Positions 40,173 to 47,315 of a DNA stretch of 52,836 nt are shown piece after piece (the first letter of the stretch is position 1; every line of letters begins with the position of its first letter). Origin of the DNA: Deltaproteobacteria bacterium. Lineage in GTDB: Bacteria; Myxococcota_A; UBA796; UBA9615. The stretch lies in NCBI GenBank assembly GCA_023954745.1, contig JAGSHC010000012.1, positions 1 through 52,836 of the forward strand. Reading direction: 5' to 3'. The notes beneath the pieces are model-generated. The model saw nothing but the letters and a program-made list of their open reading frames with translations, was not told the origin of the DNA and did not search any database. The position numbers and the translations under genes were made by a program.

Positions 40173-40655
40173 TCAGGGCTTCCCCGCGCCGTAGCGCACC
40201 TCGAGTACTTCGTACTCTGTCGGCCCCGCGGGGGTCTTGACCTCGACCACATCCCCGGCGGACTTCTTCATCAGCGCCCGGCCCACGGGACTCTGGATGG
40301 AGATCCGGCCCTTCTTCGGCTCGCTCTCCTCCTTGTCGACGAGGCGCCAGGTGAACACCTCCCCGTCCTCGCGCTCCACCTCCACGATGGCGCCGAACCG
40401 GATGTGGTCGGTGTGGGGCATTGCCCCCAGGTCCACCGGCGTCACCCCGTCGACCTTGCGCCGCAAGTAGCGCAGCCGGCTGTCGATGGTCCGAAGCCGC
40501 TTCTTGCCGTAGATGTACGCCGCGTTCTCCGACCGGTCGCCCAGCTCCGCCGCCGCGCTCACCTCGGCGACCACCTCGGGGCGCTCCTCGTGCCAGAGCC
40601 GGTCGATCTCCTTCTCGAGGGCATCGAAGCCCTCCCTCGTCATGTGCCGCGCCAT
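40173..40655 (-). CDS. greB: Transcription elongation factor GreB-like
   Basis: The N-terminal coiled coil has TREGFDALEKEIDRLWHEER and ELGDRSENAAYIYGKKRLRT, including the acidic tip (D and E) that GreA/GreB insert into the RNA polymerase secondary channel, and the GDRSENAxYxYxKK pattern of GreB. The C-terminal FKBP-like domain has DHIRFGAIVEVEREDGEVF and SPVGRALMKKSAGDVVEVKT. The ATG at 40655 is used, with GGAG five bases before it; the ATG at 40643 is the alternative. Its role is cleavage of backtracked transcripts. Its gene lies 32 bp after the rhomboid gene in the same direction. Confidence 0.93.
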   Translation of the reverse strand: MARHMTREGFDALEKEIDRLWHEERPEVVAEVSAAAELGDRSENAAYIYGKKRLRTIDSRLRYLRRKVDGVTPVDLGAMPHTDHIRFGAIVEVEREDGEVFTWRLVDKEESEPKKGRISIQSPVGRALMKKSAGDVVEVKTPAGPTEYEVLEVRYGAGKP

Positions 40656-40687
40656 CCGTCTCCCTGGAGTCCATCGAGCCGCTCGAC

Positions 40688-41815
40688 TCAGGCTTTGCGG
40701 CCCCACGTCCACCAGGCCGCCAGCCCCACGATGGCACCCCCGAGGTGCGCGAGGTAGGCCACCCCACCCCCGCCGGTCGCCATGCCCGCGAATGAACCCA
40801 GCAGTTGCATGCCCACCCAGAACGCCATGTAGACGACGGCGGGCAGCGTGAACCACCGGAACCAGATGACCAGGCCCAGCCGCGCCTGCGGGAAGCGCGC
40901 CCCGTACAGGATCATCACCCCGGAGATTCCTCCGCTCGCGCCCACCAGCGGAATCGACGAGGACGGGTCGGCCAGCATGTGCAGCAGCGTGCCGGCGAAC
41001 GCCGCCCCCGCGAGCACCGCCGCGAAGCGCTTGCTGCCGAGGAAGTCCTCGACGTTGTCTCCGAAGATCAGAAGGAACCACAGGTTCCCCAGCAGATGCA
41101 GCACACCGCCGTGGAGGAGGAACGAGGTCACCCAGGTGACGCCGCCCTTTCGGAAGGGCTCTGCCGGCACGAAGGCCCAGCCCTCGATGGCCGTCCCCAG
41201 GTCCCCGAACGTGAACAGCGCCACCACCACCAGCAAGACGCCCACGGTCCACGTCACCACCGGCGCGCGACTCACCGCGGGCGGATTCACCTCCACCGGC
41301 GCGAACATCGCCAGCAGGTACTTCCAGCCCGTCACGTCCTCGTAGTCGCCCGCATCACGCTGAATCCGGTCGAGGGTGTATGCGAGCTCGGCGTCCAGCA
41401 TGGGAGGCGGGCTGTCGGGACGGGGCGACTGCACGCGGATCGGCGCTGGGGGACCGCGCTTCAACCCCACGGGCTGGAGCGGGAGCTGCTCGAGCTCGTC
41501 GGCGTCGAAGAACACCACGTGACACGAAGTGCAGACATCGATGTCCACCAACGCGGGCTCCCCGACGGGGCTCTCCTCGGGCGACAACAACAGCGTGACC
41601 TCCCGCATCGCCCGGCGGCACGACGGGCAGTCCCGCCCGGGGTGGGCTCGACCGGCGCGCGCGTCCTGCCAGAGCCGGGACAACGGACCCTTCTCCAACG
41701 ACTGCTGAAGAAAGGCGAGGGTCCCCATGCGGGCGGAGCATCGGCGGCACATCCAGAAGGACCCGTCGGGTCCCTTGGTGCGGCTCATGGTGGCTTCGCA
41801 GCTGGCGCAGATCAC
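40688..41815 (-). CDS. Rhomboid family intramembrane serine protease with zinc-ribbon N-terminus
   Basis: A GTG start opens a 375-residue protein. Residues ~3-30 hold CASC and CRRC, and residues ~63-100 hold CPSC and CTSC, two zinc-ribbon-like units that may bind metal or act as redox sensors. The rhomboid domain (~residues 160-370) has GNLWFLLIFGDNVEDFLG and the catalytic GASGGISG with the nucleophilic Ser, plus AHLGGAIVG holding the His partner. About six to seven spans are seen. It cleaves membrane proteins in or near the lipid bilayer. It is divergent from a two-component response regulator gene. Confidence 0.88.
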   Translation of the reverse strand: MICASCEATMSRTKGPDGSFWMCRRCSARMGTLAFLQQSLEKGPLSRLWQDARAGRAHPGRDCPSCRRAMREVTLLLSPEESPVGEPALVDIDVCTSCHVVFFDADELEQLPLQPVGLKRGPPAPIRVQSPRPDSPPPMLDAELAYTLDRIQRDAGDYEDVTGWKYLLAMFAPVEVNPPAVSRAPVVTWTVGVLLVVVALFTFGDLGTAIEGWAFVPAEPFRKGGVTWVTSFLLHGGVLHLLGNLWFLLIFGDNVEDFLGSKRFAAVLAGAAFAGTLLHMLADPSSSIPLVGASGGISGVMILYGARFPQARLGLVIWFRWFTLPAVVYMAFWVGMQLLGSFAGMATGGGGVAYLAHLGGAIVGLAAWWTWGRKA

Positions 41816-41927: not shown

Positions 41928-42620
41928 ATGGACGCGAAGCCTCCGATTCTCGTGGTTGAAGATGAAACCGCCATCCGTGTGGGCCTGTGCGACGTGCTCG
42001 CCTACCACGGGTTCGCGCCGACGGGCGTCGACAACGGCGACGACGGCCTCGCCGAAGCCCTGTCTGGGCGGTACCGCCTGCTGGTGCTCGACGTGATGCT
42101 CCCCGGTGTCGATGGCTTCACCATCGCGCGCACCGTGCGGGACAAGCTGCCCAAGCAGGCCATCCTCATGCTCACGGCCAAGGGCGCCGAGTCCGACGTG
42201 CTCGAGGGGTTCAACTCCGGGGCCGACGACTACGTCAGCAAGCCCTTCTCCGTGCCTCAGCTCGTCGCCCGCGTCCAAGCGCTGGTGCGGCGGGCGGCCC
42301 CGGAGTCGCGGCGTCAGTTCCAGCTCGGCAGCCTCGACGTCAACGCCGACACCCTGGTCGCATCGAAGGGCGGCGCCCTCGAAGAGCTCTCCCCCCGAGA
42401 CATCGAGGTCCTGGCGTACTTCTCGGCATCGCCAGGCAAGGTCATCAGCCGTGAGGACCTGCTGCGGGATGTGTGGGGCTACGCCCGCGCCGAGGCCCTG
42501 GAGACCCGCTGCGTGGACATGCACATCGCCAAGCTGCGCAAGAAGCTCGTGCCCCTCGGGGCCGGGGGCGACTCCCTCATCGAGACCGTCCGAGGAGCCG
42601 GCTACCGCGTCCGGGTCTGA
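41928..42620 (+). CDS. OmpR/PhoB-family response regulator
   Basis: The 230-residue protein has a complete receiver domain: acidic pair Glu11-Asp12, phospho-acceptor Asp55 (LVLDVMLPGVDGF), Thr83 and Lys105. The C-terminal winged helix ends DMHIAKLRKKLVPLG, SLIETVRGAGYRVRV, the OmpR-type DNA-binding domain. The ATG at 41928 was chosen because it begins the receiver; the frame is open further upstream but would cross the divergent rhomboid gene. The cognate kinase gene starts 19 bp downstream. A GGTTAC direct repeat upstream could be its own binding site. Confidence 0.93.
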   Translation: MDAKPPILVVEDETAIRVGLCDVLAYHGFAPTGVDNGDDGLAEALSGRYRLLVLDVMLPGVDGFTIARTVRDKLPKQAILMLTAKGAESDVLEGFNSGADDYVSKPFSVPQLVARVQALVRRAAPESRRQFQLGSLDVNADTLVASKGGALEELSPRDIEVLAYFSASPGKVISREDLLRDVWGYARAEALETRCVDMHIAKLRKKLVPLGAGGDSLIETVRGAGYRVRV

Positions 42621-42638: not shown

Positions 42639-45362
42639 ATGCGCCGCATCGGCATCCTCGTTGCCATCCTCAGTGTGCTGCTCCTGGCAGGCCTGGGCAT
42701 GCTGGTGGCGCGCGCCCTGGAGAGCGTCGAGCGCGAGCGCGCCATGCGACACGAAGTCCTCGCCGAGCGCGTGTTCGACGAGCTCGAGGAACAGCTCACC
42801 GAGCTCACCGAGCGCGAGGAAGCCCGGCCGTTCCTCCAGTACCGCTTTTTCTACGTGCCCGAGGGTCAGGTCGGGGCGAACCCGGCGCTGTCTCGCTCGC
42901 CGTTGTCCAACGTGCCCGAAGACGACTGGCTGCTCGGATGGTTCCAGCTCGATCCCGGCGGGGGGGTCACCACACCCCTCGAGCCCGACGACGACGGCCT
43001 CGCCAGCTCCATCGGCTGGGCCCGCGACCTCGCGCTGGAGACCCGCATCGCGCGACTTCGCGAGGTGGCACGCACGCTGCCCGTCCAGGCCGAGGACCGC
43101 CGCCTCGTGGCAGGGGCCGACATCGTCATCGACGAGAAGACGGCGGAGCCTCCCAAGGAGCGCAGCCTCTCCACCAAGACGCCCGCCCCGACCTCCGAGC
43201 CCGCTCCCGCCCCTCCACCTCCCCCGTCGAAGCCAGCCACCACCATCGACAAGACCACCGAGGACGGCCTCGCGGATGCGCGCACCGAGACAGGCCGGAA
43301 GAGCGGCCTGCGGGTGGCAAAGAAGGAGTCCGCTCCCGCCCCTCAGCAGAGCGCGGACCCGTACGGAATCGGATCGCTCAACAAGGGAGCCACGCGCCGC
43401 GCCGACCGACAGCAGCGCGTCACCAAGAGCAACGTCGAGAACGTGCGCAGCTACCAGTTCCCCGAGGGGAACGAGGCGATTCTGCGTGGCGACCAGGGTC
43501 TGCCGGAGGTCGCCTTCGACGCCGAGAGTGGCGACGCGGTGGTGCAGGTCGCCGACGAAGCCGCGAAGGACCAGTGGACGGTCGCCGACGGCGCCGCCTT
43601 CGCAGAGGAGGAGGAGGCCGCGGAGCGCGAGGACTCGGGCGGCTTCGCAGACCTCGACGAGCTCGACGAGGCGGTGGACGACGCTGCGGACGAGAGCCGC
43701 GAGGCTACGGTGGACTCCGTGCAGTCCGAGGTCGCCTACGCCCCGGAGAAGAAGCGCAAGGCGAAGCAGGCCCGCCGACGGAACCGTGCCGTCCCCCCGC
43801 CGGCCATCGGCGCCCGAGCCAAGAGGCAGGCAGCTCAGGGGCCCCAGGCCGCGAGCCCGGAGCCAGAGCCCGCGGCCGAGCCGGTGGCCGATGCCCCAAC
43901 CCTCGACGCTCCCGCCCCAGAGGTCACAGAGCAGCTGCCGGACCAGGACGACGACGGCCTCGACGAGCTCCGGGTGCAGGAGGCCCAGCCCCAGGACCGC
44001 CTCGGGGCAGCAGCGACCGGCGAAGCCTCCGCACTCTCGGTCGGAGCGGAGGCCGGAGGGGTGGCCTACCGCGCCACCGGCGGCCTGGTGGACAACGCCT
44101 CCGTGGCCGGCAAGGCCGACGCCGACCCCAACTCCCAGCGCGAAGCTCAGAAGGCCCAGCAGCAGAACCAGCCACGGCGAGCTCCGACATCCCGCAGCAC
44201 GAGTACGGCGGTCGTCGCCCCACCCATCGAGGACGCAGGCGACCGCGAGGTCGACGTGGAGATCTCCCCGTTCCGGGGGCACCGCGTGGACGACGACACC
44301 ATGGTGCTGTTCCGCACGGTACGCATCGGCGAGGTGGTCTACGTGCAGGGGCTCGCCCTGCTGCTCCCCAAGCTGGTCCGGTGGCTCGAGGAGGAGGCTC
44401 TCGCCGGCAGCGAGGTCGAGTCGCTGCTGCAGCTCGCCTGGAACGGAGGCGCTCCCGCCTCGTTGCGCGCGGCCCCCGACTTCACCTTCGCCCACACGTT
44501 CGCCGACCCCTTCGCTGGGCTGAGCGTGACCTCCTACCTCACCGCCCTCCCGGAGCAGCGCGGCTCGGGCCGCACCTGGATTCTCCAGCTCACCGCCCTG
44601 CTCGTGATCGTCGGGCTGCTGGGGATCATCGCGCTGTGGCGCATGGTGTCGGTCGTGGTGCACTTCGCAGAGCGGCGCAGCAACTTCGTGGCCGCGGTGT
44701 CTCACGAGCTGAAGACGCCGTTGACCGCGATCCGGATGTACGCAGAGATGCTTCGCGACGGGTACGTCCTCAACGAAGAGAAGCGCAGCGAGTACTACGA
44801 GACGATGGCGGCCGAGTCCGAGCGTCTCTCGCGGCTGATCCAGAACGTCCTCGAGCTCTCACGGCTGGAGAAGGGCGCGAGCGCGGGGAGCGAGATCATC
44901 ACCGGCGACGTGCGACCCGTGCTCGAAGAGGCCGTGCGGGTACTGGAGCGGCACGCCCGGGAGCGGGGCTTCTCCATCGTGCTTCACCTCCCCGACGACC
45001 TGCCCGCCGTGCGCTACGAGCGGGACGGCTTGCTCCAGGTGCTGATCAACCTCGTCGACAACGGCATCAAGTTCAGCAAGGCATCGGGCGCCAAGGAGGT
45101 GGAGATCGAGGCCATCCCCAAGGGCGGCGGCGTCGTACTCCAGATTCGCGACCACGGCCCTGGAGTCCCCACTCGCCAGCTGAATCGGATCTTTCAGCCC
45201 TTCTATCGAGGCGAGCGCGAGTTGACCCGGCGCACCAAGGGCACCGGAATCGGTCTCGCCCTGGTGAAGGGGATCGTCGATCGCATGGGGGGCAACGTGA
45301 GCGCCCGGAACCACCCCGATGGCGGGTTCGAGGTCCGAGTCTCCCTCAGCGCGGCCGCCTGA
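42639..45362 (+). CDS. Histidine kinase with very large disordered extracytoplasmic sensor region
   Basis: The 907-residue protein has membrane spans at ~5-27 and ~646-668, which enclose about 620 extracytoplasmic residues. The flanks of that region look folded: up to ~165 (ERVFDELEEQL, RPFLQYRFFYVPEGQ, LLGWFQLDP) and ~530-640 (MVLFRTVRIGEVVYVQGLAL). Between them lie about 365 low-complexity residues rich in Ala, Pro, Glu, Lys and Gln. The kinase core is normal: H-box SHELKTPLTAIR with His689, N-box NLVDNGIKFS, G1 DHGPGV and G2 GTGIGLALVKG. No HAMP domain is evident between the second span and the H-box. Its gene follows the response-regulator gene by 19 bp. Confidence 0.9.
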   Translation: MRRIGILVAILSVLLLAGLGMLVARALESVERERAMRHEVLAERVFDELEEQLTELTEREEARPFLQYRFFYVPEGQVGANPALSRSPLSNVPEDDWLLGWFQLDPGGGVTTPLEPDDDGLASSIGWARDLALETRIARLREVARTLPVQAEDRRLVAGADIVIDEKTAEPPKERSLSTKTPAPTSEPAPAPPPPPSKPATTIDKTTEDGLADARTETGRKSGLRVAKKESAPAPQQSADPYGIGSLNKGATRRADRQQRVTKSNVENVRSYQFPEGNEAILRGDQGLPEVAFDAESGDAVVQVADEAAKDQWTVADGAAFAEEEEAAEREDSGGFADLDELDEAVDDAADESREATVDSVQSEVAYAPEKKRKAKQARRRNRAVPPPAIGARAKRQAAQGPQAASPEPEPAAEPVADAPTLDAPAPEVTEQLPDQDDDGLDELRVQEAQPQDRLGAAATGEASALSVGAEAGGVAYRATGGLVDNASVAGKADADPNSQREAQKAQQQNQPRRAPTSRSTSTAVVAPPIEDAGDREVDVEISPFRGHRVDDDTMVLFRTVRIGEVVYVQGLALLLPKLVRWLEEEALAGSEVESLLQLAWNGGAPASLRAAPDFTFAHTFADPFAGLSVTSYLTALPEQRGSGRTWILQLTALLVIVGLLGIIALWRMVSVVVHFAERRSNFVAAVSHELKTPLTAIRMYAEMLRDGYVLNEEKRSEYYETMAAESERLSRLIQNVLELSRLEKGASAGSEIITGDVRPVLEEAVRVLERHARERGFSIVLHLPDDLPAVRYERDGLLQVLINLVDNGIKFSKASGAKEVEIEAIPKGGGVVLQIRDHGPGVPTRQLNRIFQPFYRGERELTRRTKGTGIGLALVKGIVDRMGGNVSARNHPDGGFEVRVSLSAAA

Positions 45363-45441: not shown

Positions 45442-46128
45442 ATGGAGGACCGAGTGGATCTCAAGCTGCTGTTCGACGAGTTCGGAGCCAGCATGGCGCG
45501 TGCCAGGGATCTGGACACGTCCGAGCGCTTGTCGGACTGGAGCGCCGCGGTGAAGACGCGGCTCGTGCGTCTGGGAGACCGCCGCAAGTACGTGCCGTTT
45601 GCCACGGACGACCGCCGCAAGTCTGGCGCGTATCTGTGGGACGTCGCCTGGTGCGTCGAGGACAAGATCCGCCGAGGACAGCCCCCCAGCGGCGCCGGCA
45701 TCCCCAAGCTGCAGTTCCCCCACGCCCCGTATCGGCGCCTCGTGCTCACCGCCGAGGTCGAGTGGGGCCGGCAGGGCCAGCGCTCCGGCACCCAGGTGTA
45801 TCGCCAGAACCTCGAGGAGGTGTTCCGGGACTTCTACAAGCTGATGGACGCCCGCAGTCAGACCAAGGTGATGGTCTACACCACCTGGATGTTCCCGGAT
45901 CAGGGCGGCCTGGACGGGCTCTTCCTCAAGGGCTTCCGGCAGATCCTCCTCGACTACGAGGGCCACCTCCCCCAGGACGCGTACCTCTTCATCGAGTTCG
46001 ATGACCGGTCGCGCACGATCAACGGCTACAGCACCGAAGTGCCCCGCCGTGGCCCGCGCCCGTTCCGCCTCAAGCAGCTCGGCTCCGTCGCCTACCCGCG
46101 CAAGTGGGACCCGAAGCAGAAGTACTGA
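45442..46128 (+). CDS. Unknown protein, possible PD-(D/E)XK-like fold
   Basis: A 228-residue protein without signal peptide or membrane span. YLWDVAWCVEDK, later RRLVLTAEVEWGRQGQ and then VFRDFYKLMDARSQTKVMVY resemble, in spacing and in the Asp/Glu-x-Glu arrangement, small PD-(D/E)XK-nuclease-like proteins, but this is weak. The C-terminus is basic (RRGPRPFRLKQLG, YPRKWDPKQKY). It begins 79 bp after the histidine kinase and is followed by the M48 peptidase gene 122 bp on. Role unknown. Confidence 0.6.
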   Translation: MEDRVDLKLLFDEFGASMARARDLDTSERLSDWSAAVKTRLVRLGDRRKYVPFATDDRRKSGAYLWDVAWCVEDKIRRGQPPSGAGIPKLQFPHAPYRRLVLTAEVEWGRQGQRSGTQVYRQNLEEVFRDFYKLMDARSQTKVMVYTTWMFPDQGGLDGLFLKGFRQILLDYEGHLPQDAYLFIEFDDRSRTINGYSTEVPRRGPRPFRLKQLGSVAYPRKWDPKQKY

Positions 46129-46250
46129 GCTGAGCTCGCTCTGACCCGTCAGGGGACGTGTTCCGGGGCATCTGCTGCAATGGTGGGGTGTTCCTGTGCG
46201 TATGCACCAGCGGCTGTGCTGGCGCCGAGCCCCGCGGTCCTGGAGGTTCC

Positions 46251-47315
46251 ATGGCGAAGAAGAAGACTCCCCCGACCCCCGAGCGCGTGCGCTTTCCCGG
46301 CCTGTCCCCCCGGGCCTACGAACACCCCTCGGACCGCGCCGCCCTGGTGGCGCTGCGCAAGGTCCCCGGCTTCGACTTCGCGGTGCGCAAGCTCTTCGGC
46401 TTCATCGGTGACCGGTCACTTCGGCTCGCGACGCTCGCGTCGGCGGTGCGGGTCAGCCCCACGCAGTTCCCCAAGGTGCACACCAAGTACCTCGAGGCGT
46501 GCGCCATCCTCGACATCGTCGACCCGCCCGAGCTCTTCATCGCCCAAACCCCCATCGTCAACGCGGGAGCGGTGGGGATCGACGAGCCATTCATCGTCAT
46601 CAACAGCGGCACCGTCATGCTGATGGACGAGGACGAGCTCCAGTTCATCCTCGCCCACGAGTTGGGGCACGTGCTGTCAGAGCACGTGCTCTACAAGACG
46701 ATGATTCGATTGATGCTGCGCATGACGATCATCGCGATGGCCGTGCCCCTCGGTGGCGCTGCGCTCTTCGCGATTCTTGCGGCGCTCCTCGAGTGGGACC
46801 GCAAGTCGGAACTCAGCGCCGACCGCGCGGGCCTTCTCGTGGTCCAGGACCCCGCCGTCGCCTACCGAGCCCACATGAAGCTGGCCGGTGGCGGGCAGAT
46901 GCCGGAGATGTCCGTCGACGAGTTCCTCGCCCAGGCCGAGGAGTACCGCGAGGGCGGCACCGTGGCGGACGGCGTAGTGAAGCTGCTCAACCTCATCGGT
47001 CGCACTCACCCGTTCCCGGTCCTGCGTCTCCACGAGTTGAAAGCGTGGGCCGAGGGCGACGCCTACCAGGAGCTCATGAAGGGCGAGTACCCCCGCCGCC
47101 ACGAGGATCCCGAGACGTCGCTGTACAGCGAGATCATGAGAGGCGGCGCCCAGTACAAGGATGACTTCGAGAAGTCGCCTGACCCGCTGTTCGGCTTCGT
47201 CAAGGACCTGCGGCGCGAGGTGGTGGGGGGAGCCCAGTCCGTCGCGAGCTTCATTCGCAACAAGCGAGGGGGCGGCGACGCCGACGCGGCCAACGAGCCG
47301 GCGCCCGACGCCTGA
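46251..47315 (+). CDS. M48-type membrane metallopeptidase
   Basis: An ATG at 46251 follows GGAGG at the right distance; an earlier start at 46158 would add Cys-rich residues with no support. The zinc motif is HELGH (His136, His140), with the third ligand Glu187 in SELSADRAG, as in M48 peptidases. Near VPLGGAALFAILAALLEW is a hydrophobic span just after the active site. The N-terminal ~110 residues are soluble and Arg/Lys-rich. Its relatives such as HtpX degrade faulty inner-membrane proteins. The gene ends at the stop of the convergent SDR gene. Confidence 0.88.
   Translation: MAKKKTPPTPERVRFPGLSPRAYEHPSDRAALVALRKVPGFDFAVRKLFGFIGDRSLRLATLASAVRVSPTQFPKVHTKYLEACAILDIVDPPELFIAQTPIVNAGAVGIDEPFIVINSGTVMLMDEDELQFILAHELGHVLSEHVLYKTMIRLMLRMTIIAMAVPLGGAALFAILAALLEWDRKSELSADRAGLLVVQDPAVAYRAHMKLAGGGQMPEMSVDEFLAQAEEYREGGTVADGVVKLLNLIGRTHPFPVLRLHELKAWAEGDAYQELMKGEYPRRHEDPETSLYSEIMRGGAQYKDDFEKSPDPLFGFVKDLRREVVGGAQSVASFIRNKRGGGDADAANEPAPDA

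Follow-up and report, generated by a model that had tools for sequence, protein, structure and literature searches.

The window, by which we mean the whole 52,836-nucleotide stretch of DNA that was analysed, encodes a 907-residue histidine kinase with a split extracytoplasmic sensor (42639-45362, +), which was identified from its ORF and its HisKA and HATPase_c domains and is present as a single copy per genome in relatives. By hydropathy, a first transmembrane segment (TM1, residues ~4-26, 42648-42716, +), which falls at the start of a helix modelled by AF2 over residues 2-61, and a second one (TM2, residues ~645-676, 44571-44666, +) bound an extracytoplasmic sensor of residues ~27-645. These are followed by the HisKA dimerisation/phosphoacceptor domain (residues 680-746 with His689, 44676-44876, +; PF00512, E 4.3e-22) and the HATPase_c catalytic domain (residues 795-904, 45021-45350, +; PF02518, E 4.9e-26). 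Directly upstream of the kinase lies the gene for its cognate OmpR/PhoB-type response regulator (41928-42620, +), with Response_reg (PF00072) and Trans_reg_C (PF00486) domains; the MDAKPPILVVEDE alignment makes 41928 the likely start of this regulator, while the ORF itself opens at 41727. A HisKA-HATPase_c kinase beside a REC-wHTH regulator gene places the pair among the OmpR/PhoB-type two-component systems, and the regulators found upstream of orthologous kinases are 50-77% identical to that of the window. For the window kinase, none of the NCBIfam equivalog cut-offs for PnpS, PhoR, WalK, BaeS or CpxA was reached, the best score, for PnpS, being 185 bits where 400 are required. With the envelope-stress kinases CpxA, BaeS and EnvZ it has a common HisKA/HATPase core, at NCBIfam scores below cut-off and with the match limited to the kinase part.

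Around this pair, a rhomboid with an N-terminal zinc ribbon is encoded divergently (40688-41815, -; PF01694 and PF13453), and downstream of the kinase come a 228-residue protein for which neither Pfam nor NCBIfam gave a match (45442-46128, +) and an M48 (HtpX-like) metallopeptidase (46158-47315, +; PF01435). The zinc ribbon of the rhomboid is of the TFIIB type, and a gene for a GreB-like elongation factor adjoins it at 40173-40733 (-).

Relatives of the kinase came from a related-locus search, from 20 related genomes and from a profile built on the N-terminal sensor flank (A4); this profile detected a single copy in each of 12 genomes of the class, out of 71, and 47 of the phylum, out of 284. 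Because there is a single match per genome, the family looks orthologous.

The split sensor and its inserted loop

The sensor consists of two folded flanks separated by a long insertion. The N-terminal flank (residues ~27-122, 42717-43004, +), which is captured by profile A4 and conserved in 49 loci, has a predicted long helix and the strand 'LLGWFQLDP' (residues 98-104 in the AF2 model), while the C-terminal flank (residues ~533-645, 44235-44573, +), captured by its own profile, would supply the remaining strands of a putative Cache/PAS-like sheet (AF2 strands at 540-634). Both profiles match one ORF, with a loop in between, in 33 distinct full-length loci, and in the AF2 sensor models of the window and of locus L002 the loop is preceded by the long helix together with one strand or two, and followed by the other strands. 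Judged by this co-occurrence around a loop, the folded flanks are halves of one sensor domain. The Pfam search of the window kinase returned no match to any sensor domain, and the fold search of the sensor found nothing at E <= 0.001; its top matches were the Cache/PDC proteins KinD (4jgo) and CqsR (9nj8/9nia), at E values of only 3e-3 to 0.2, and these non-significant matches hint at a Cache/PAS-like sensor. Compared by fold match only, KinD and CqsR share with it a long N-terminal helix and a mixed sheet between two transmembrane helices.

The loop between the profile-matched flanks spans 410 residues in the window (residues 123-532, 43005-44234, +), as delimited by composition, flank profiles, AF2 and codon GC. 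Depending on where its edges are set, ~370-410 low-complexity residues interrupt the sensor, the sequence being clearly low-complexity from residue ~168 to ~535-545; by composition, residues ~168-545 are rich in A, P, E and D, and order-promoting residues are scarce. AlphaFold pLDDT falls below 50 at residues 151-248 and 270-536, with a break at about 249-269, and on this model the loop is probably disordered. GC content by codon position is 0.77/0.53/0.87 in the loop and 0.79/0.45/0.89 and 0.70/0.43/0.91 in the flanks, a pattern that shows the loop to be genuine coding sequence. In the same-genus ortholog (L001), the loop lies in the same frame and measures 407 residues between the flanks, compared with 410 in the window. 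The first-pass annotation, which had described a histidine kinase with ~365 disordered residues inside its sensor and had proposed a single sensor domain divided by that insertion, thus agrees with the ORF, the domains, the low complexity and the pLDDT values, size included, and with the flanks that enclose a loop in 33 loci. It had also named loss of the loop from close homologues as a finding that would count against it, and every full-length relative examined has the loop; its length, however, which was to be checked for conservation, varies more than six-fold.

Across relatives the flank-to-flank distance ranges from 62 to 410 residues, mostly 90-310, with the longest loops in the window, L001 and the same-family locus L033 (388 residues). 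Identity between the window and L001 is 77% in the N flank, 38% in the loop and 73% in the C flank plus kinase, and the corresponding values for L033 are 48%, 29% and 56%. With loop identity this far under flank identity, the loop evolves fast while a short motif within it, described below, persists. In one relative (L032, ORF from 4087), the kinase loop contains tandem repeats of ~18 residues (ATPVEEPVQDIEQAIQQA), and such repeats may be one route of loop lengthening.

A basic motif within the loop

A single basic motif of 22 residues, Y[DE]xLxxLN[RK]GAxxRxxRxxKV, is held by most loops of the family; in the window it reads DPYGIGSLNKGATRRADRQQRV (residues 240-261, 43356-43421, +) and carries a charge of +3. 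When scored with a PWM trained on 13 loops drawn only from other families, with seeds less than 60% identical, the window motif reached 20.3, compared with -7.9 +/- 3.5 for shuffled loops, and 0 of 1000 shuffles did as well. Held-out loops ranked at <=10/1000 shuffles in 10 of 20 cases, and when the 5010 ORFs of every fetched locus were ranked, loops of this kinase family took the first 19 places among distinct matches. The loops in the window's own class have a diverged form of the motif, and none of 300 shuffles scored as high as the window loop against a profile of this form. Weak or missing motifs occur in the loops of L127, L070 and L111. In the AF2 models, the sole long helix of the low-complexity stretch coincides with the motif (residues 244-273 in the window and 188-211 in L002), predicted at a low mean pLDDT of ~50.

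We also noted a candidate short PGTT-like motif, often present ahead of the main one, which takes the form 'KPATTID' in the window (residues 198-204, 43230-43250, +); it precedes the main motif by 34-52 residues in most loops that have it, and by 90 in L001.

Divergent neighbours of the regulator

In 23 of the 49 loci, the genes that lie immediately upstream of the regulator, in the opposite orientation, encode a PspA-family and/or VWA (von Willebrand A) protein. PspA-family proteins account for 19 loci and VWA proteins for 15, and a small membrane protein family gives matches in 17. The VWA neighbours carry an N-terminal membrane or signal segment and are hence called exported; a Pfam check on examples found PspA_IM30 (PF04012) in L002 and L003, and VWA in L033 and L002. 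These neighbours support the link to envelope stress that had been suggested for the window kinase from its sequence. In the window and in L001, no PspA or VWA gene adjoins the regulator, and the position is occupied by the zinc-ribbon rhomboid and by a calcium-binding-type repeat protein, respectively. The latter (L001:460-3543, +) is a 1027-residue protein full of DCDD-type calcium-binding-like repeats. The one PspA gene of the window genome sits on another contig, a search of this genome for a close full-length VWA ortholog returned distant VWA proteins only, and the same-genus genome keeps a VWA relative elsewhere (43% identity over 434 residues). Since the window retains the motif with no VWA gene adjacent and no close VWA ortholog found elsewhere in its genome, the motif probably does not have a VWA protein as its only partner. 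Direct repeats that could form a regulator box were sought in the divergent promoters of the window, L033 and L001, and none were found.

The C-termini of the VWA proteins share a basic tail, roughly [KR]N.[LM][SG]K...RR.G[SA]K (L033:221-1684, L051:1189-2652, L099, L100, L103, L117 and L126). The idea that this tail copies the loop motif or competes with it is no more than a lead, as the similarity between kinase loop and tail from the same locus was not consistently above that between loci. Individual loci do share strings between the kinase loop and their own VWA tail, such as LRALGY[VIL]-like strings in L106, L108 and L115 and GGAL[NS]NVFG in L122, and this sharing is inconsistent over all loci.

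Candidate sensing mechanisms and known systems

Our preferred reading, to which we give a probability of about 0.5, is that the kinase is an envelope-stress (phage-shock-type) two-component sensor with a tethered docking helix in its loop. The architecture, the motif and the neighbourhood are supported by the sequence, and we infer the ligand and the mechanism. The motif would serve as a docking helix, held out by a long and flexible tether, and would bind or leave an envelope partner (some protein, the surface of the membrane or cell wall, or the sensor itself) as envelope damage changes. Altered docking would then change the split sensor and pass through TM2 to the kinase, after which the regulator would adjust genes for envelope repair, at first those of the divergent PspA/VWA operon, while loop length would set the reach of the tether and be loosely constrained. 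We put forward more tentatively, as a possibility held at less than even odds, the particular form of this scheme that we call 'fishing', in which a disordered tether as long as ~400 residues hangs from a split periplasmic sensor, and a PspA/VWA repair module is driven by whether an envelope component captures or loses the conserved docking helix on that tether.

The main alternative is an intramolecular or membrane-binding switch, with no protein partner, in which the motif would fold back against the split sensor or the inner membrane and keep the kinase autoinhibited until a small ligand or membrane disorder displaces it. The persistence of the motif in genomes without a VWA neighbour fits such a switch, as do its basic charge in the window and its predicted helicity, both suited to a membrane- or acidic-surface-binding segment; its hydrophobic content is low, however, and the AF2 helix is of such low confidence that it shows no packing on the sensor, and we regard this reading as unlikely. 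Long Ala/Pro-rich linkers are common in GC-rich genomes, and a null model that treats the loop as a low-complexity spacer, neutral and expanding, merely tolerated at a surface turn of a sensor that binds an ordinary small ligand, would account for the length range of 62-410 residues, the A/P/E-rich composition and the within-genus identity down to 38%. It is disfavoured by the conserved motif, which is kept in most loops and in many families above both shuffles and the background ORFs, and no full-length relative examined lacks the loop; we judge a neutral spacer quite improbable.

Far less probable still is the model of the first-pass annotation, in which one of the neighbouring proteases, rhomboid or M48, cuts the loop and thereby starts signalling or resets it. 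Disordered loops are protease-prone, and RsgI of Bacillus subtilis senses damage via a cleaved ectodomain (Brunet et al. 2022, as reviewed in PMC10202637). Both protease genes are real and lie near the kinase, but the M48 gene is not the next gene, because the gene for the 228-residue protein intervenes; this protein is shared by L001 alone (83% identity), and only in the window and L001 does the M48 gene come after the kinase, which is not so in L033 of the same family. For the full-length rhomboid, we found no ortholog in a 95%-complete same-genus genome (G001) that carries the same kinase, where the best rhomboid match is partial, lies elsewhere and has an E value of 6.7e-6. The coupling to either protease is not supported by these distributions, and we rejected both as kinase partners since they are not conserved with the kinase; with neither being a family-wide partner, the cleavage model is left with an adjacency in one lineage. 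Rhomboids normally cut within or beside membrane segments, and HtpX-type M48 enzymes work on membrane proteins from the cytoplasmic side; given these usual cleavage sites, neither protease is an obvious fit for a mid-periplasmic loop.

Histidine-kinase sensors are generally regarded as folded ligand-binding domains, and a search of the open-licence literature for a kinase with such a loop gave nothing matching; nor did we find there a description of a disordered, motif-bearing element inside a folded kinase sensor beside a VWA gene. The linkage of PspA genes to two-component systems is an established envelope-stress theme (PMC11237479). The Psp/Lia-type systems covered there (LiaRS- and MprAB-like) resemble the present family in combining a membrane histidine kinase and a wHTH regulator with a PspA-family gene, as at 19 of our 49 loci, whereas LiaS is presented in that survey as a transmembrane region, HAMP and kinase, in contrast to the large, split sensor with a disordered loop described here, and a divergent VWA gene is absent from the survey's main text. 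Psp-type systems have a regulator-linked PspA/IM30 gene, as those 19 loci do; in the window, PspA is not adjacent. In RsgI, defects of the wall are sensed by a disordered ectodomain (Brunet et al. 2022, cited in PMC10202637), and the likeness lies in a disordered extracytoplasmic region that reads the envelope state; as presented in that source, however, RsgI is a cleaved anti-sigma factor, while here the loop sits inside a folded sensor and bears a conserved motif. The protein does not fit the RsgI type, defined by an anti-sigma domain and site-1/site-2 proteolysis, as its cytoplasmic part is a kinase.

If true, a docking-like motif kept in a disordered intra-domain loop near PspA/VWA genes would extend the known ways of monitoring envelope integrity, in a phylum where such envelope systems are little studied, and 'fishing' would be a sensing mode for which we found no description among histidine kinases. 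The conserved 22-residue motif makes the docking idea directly testable.
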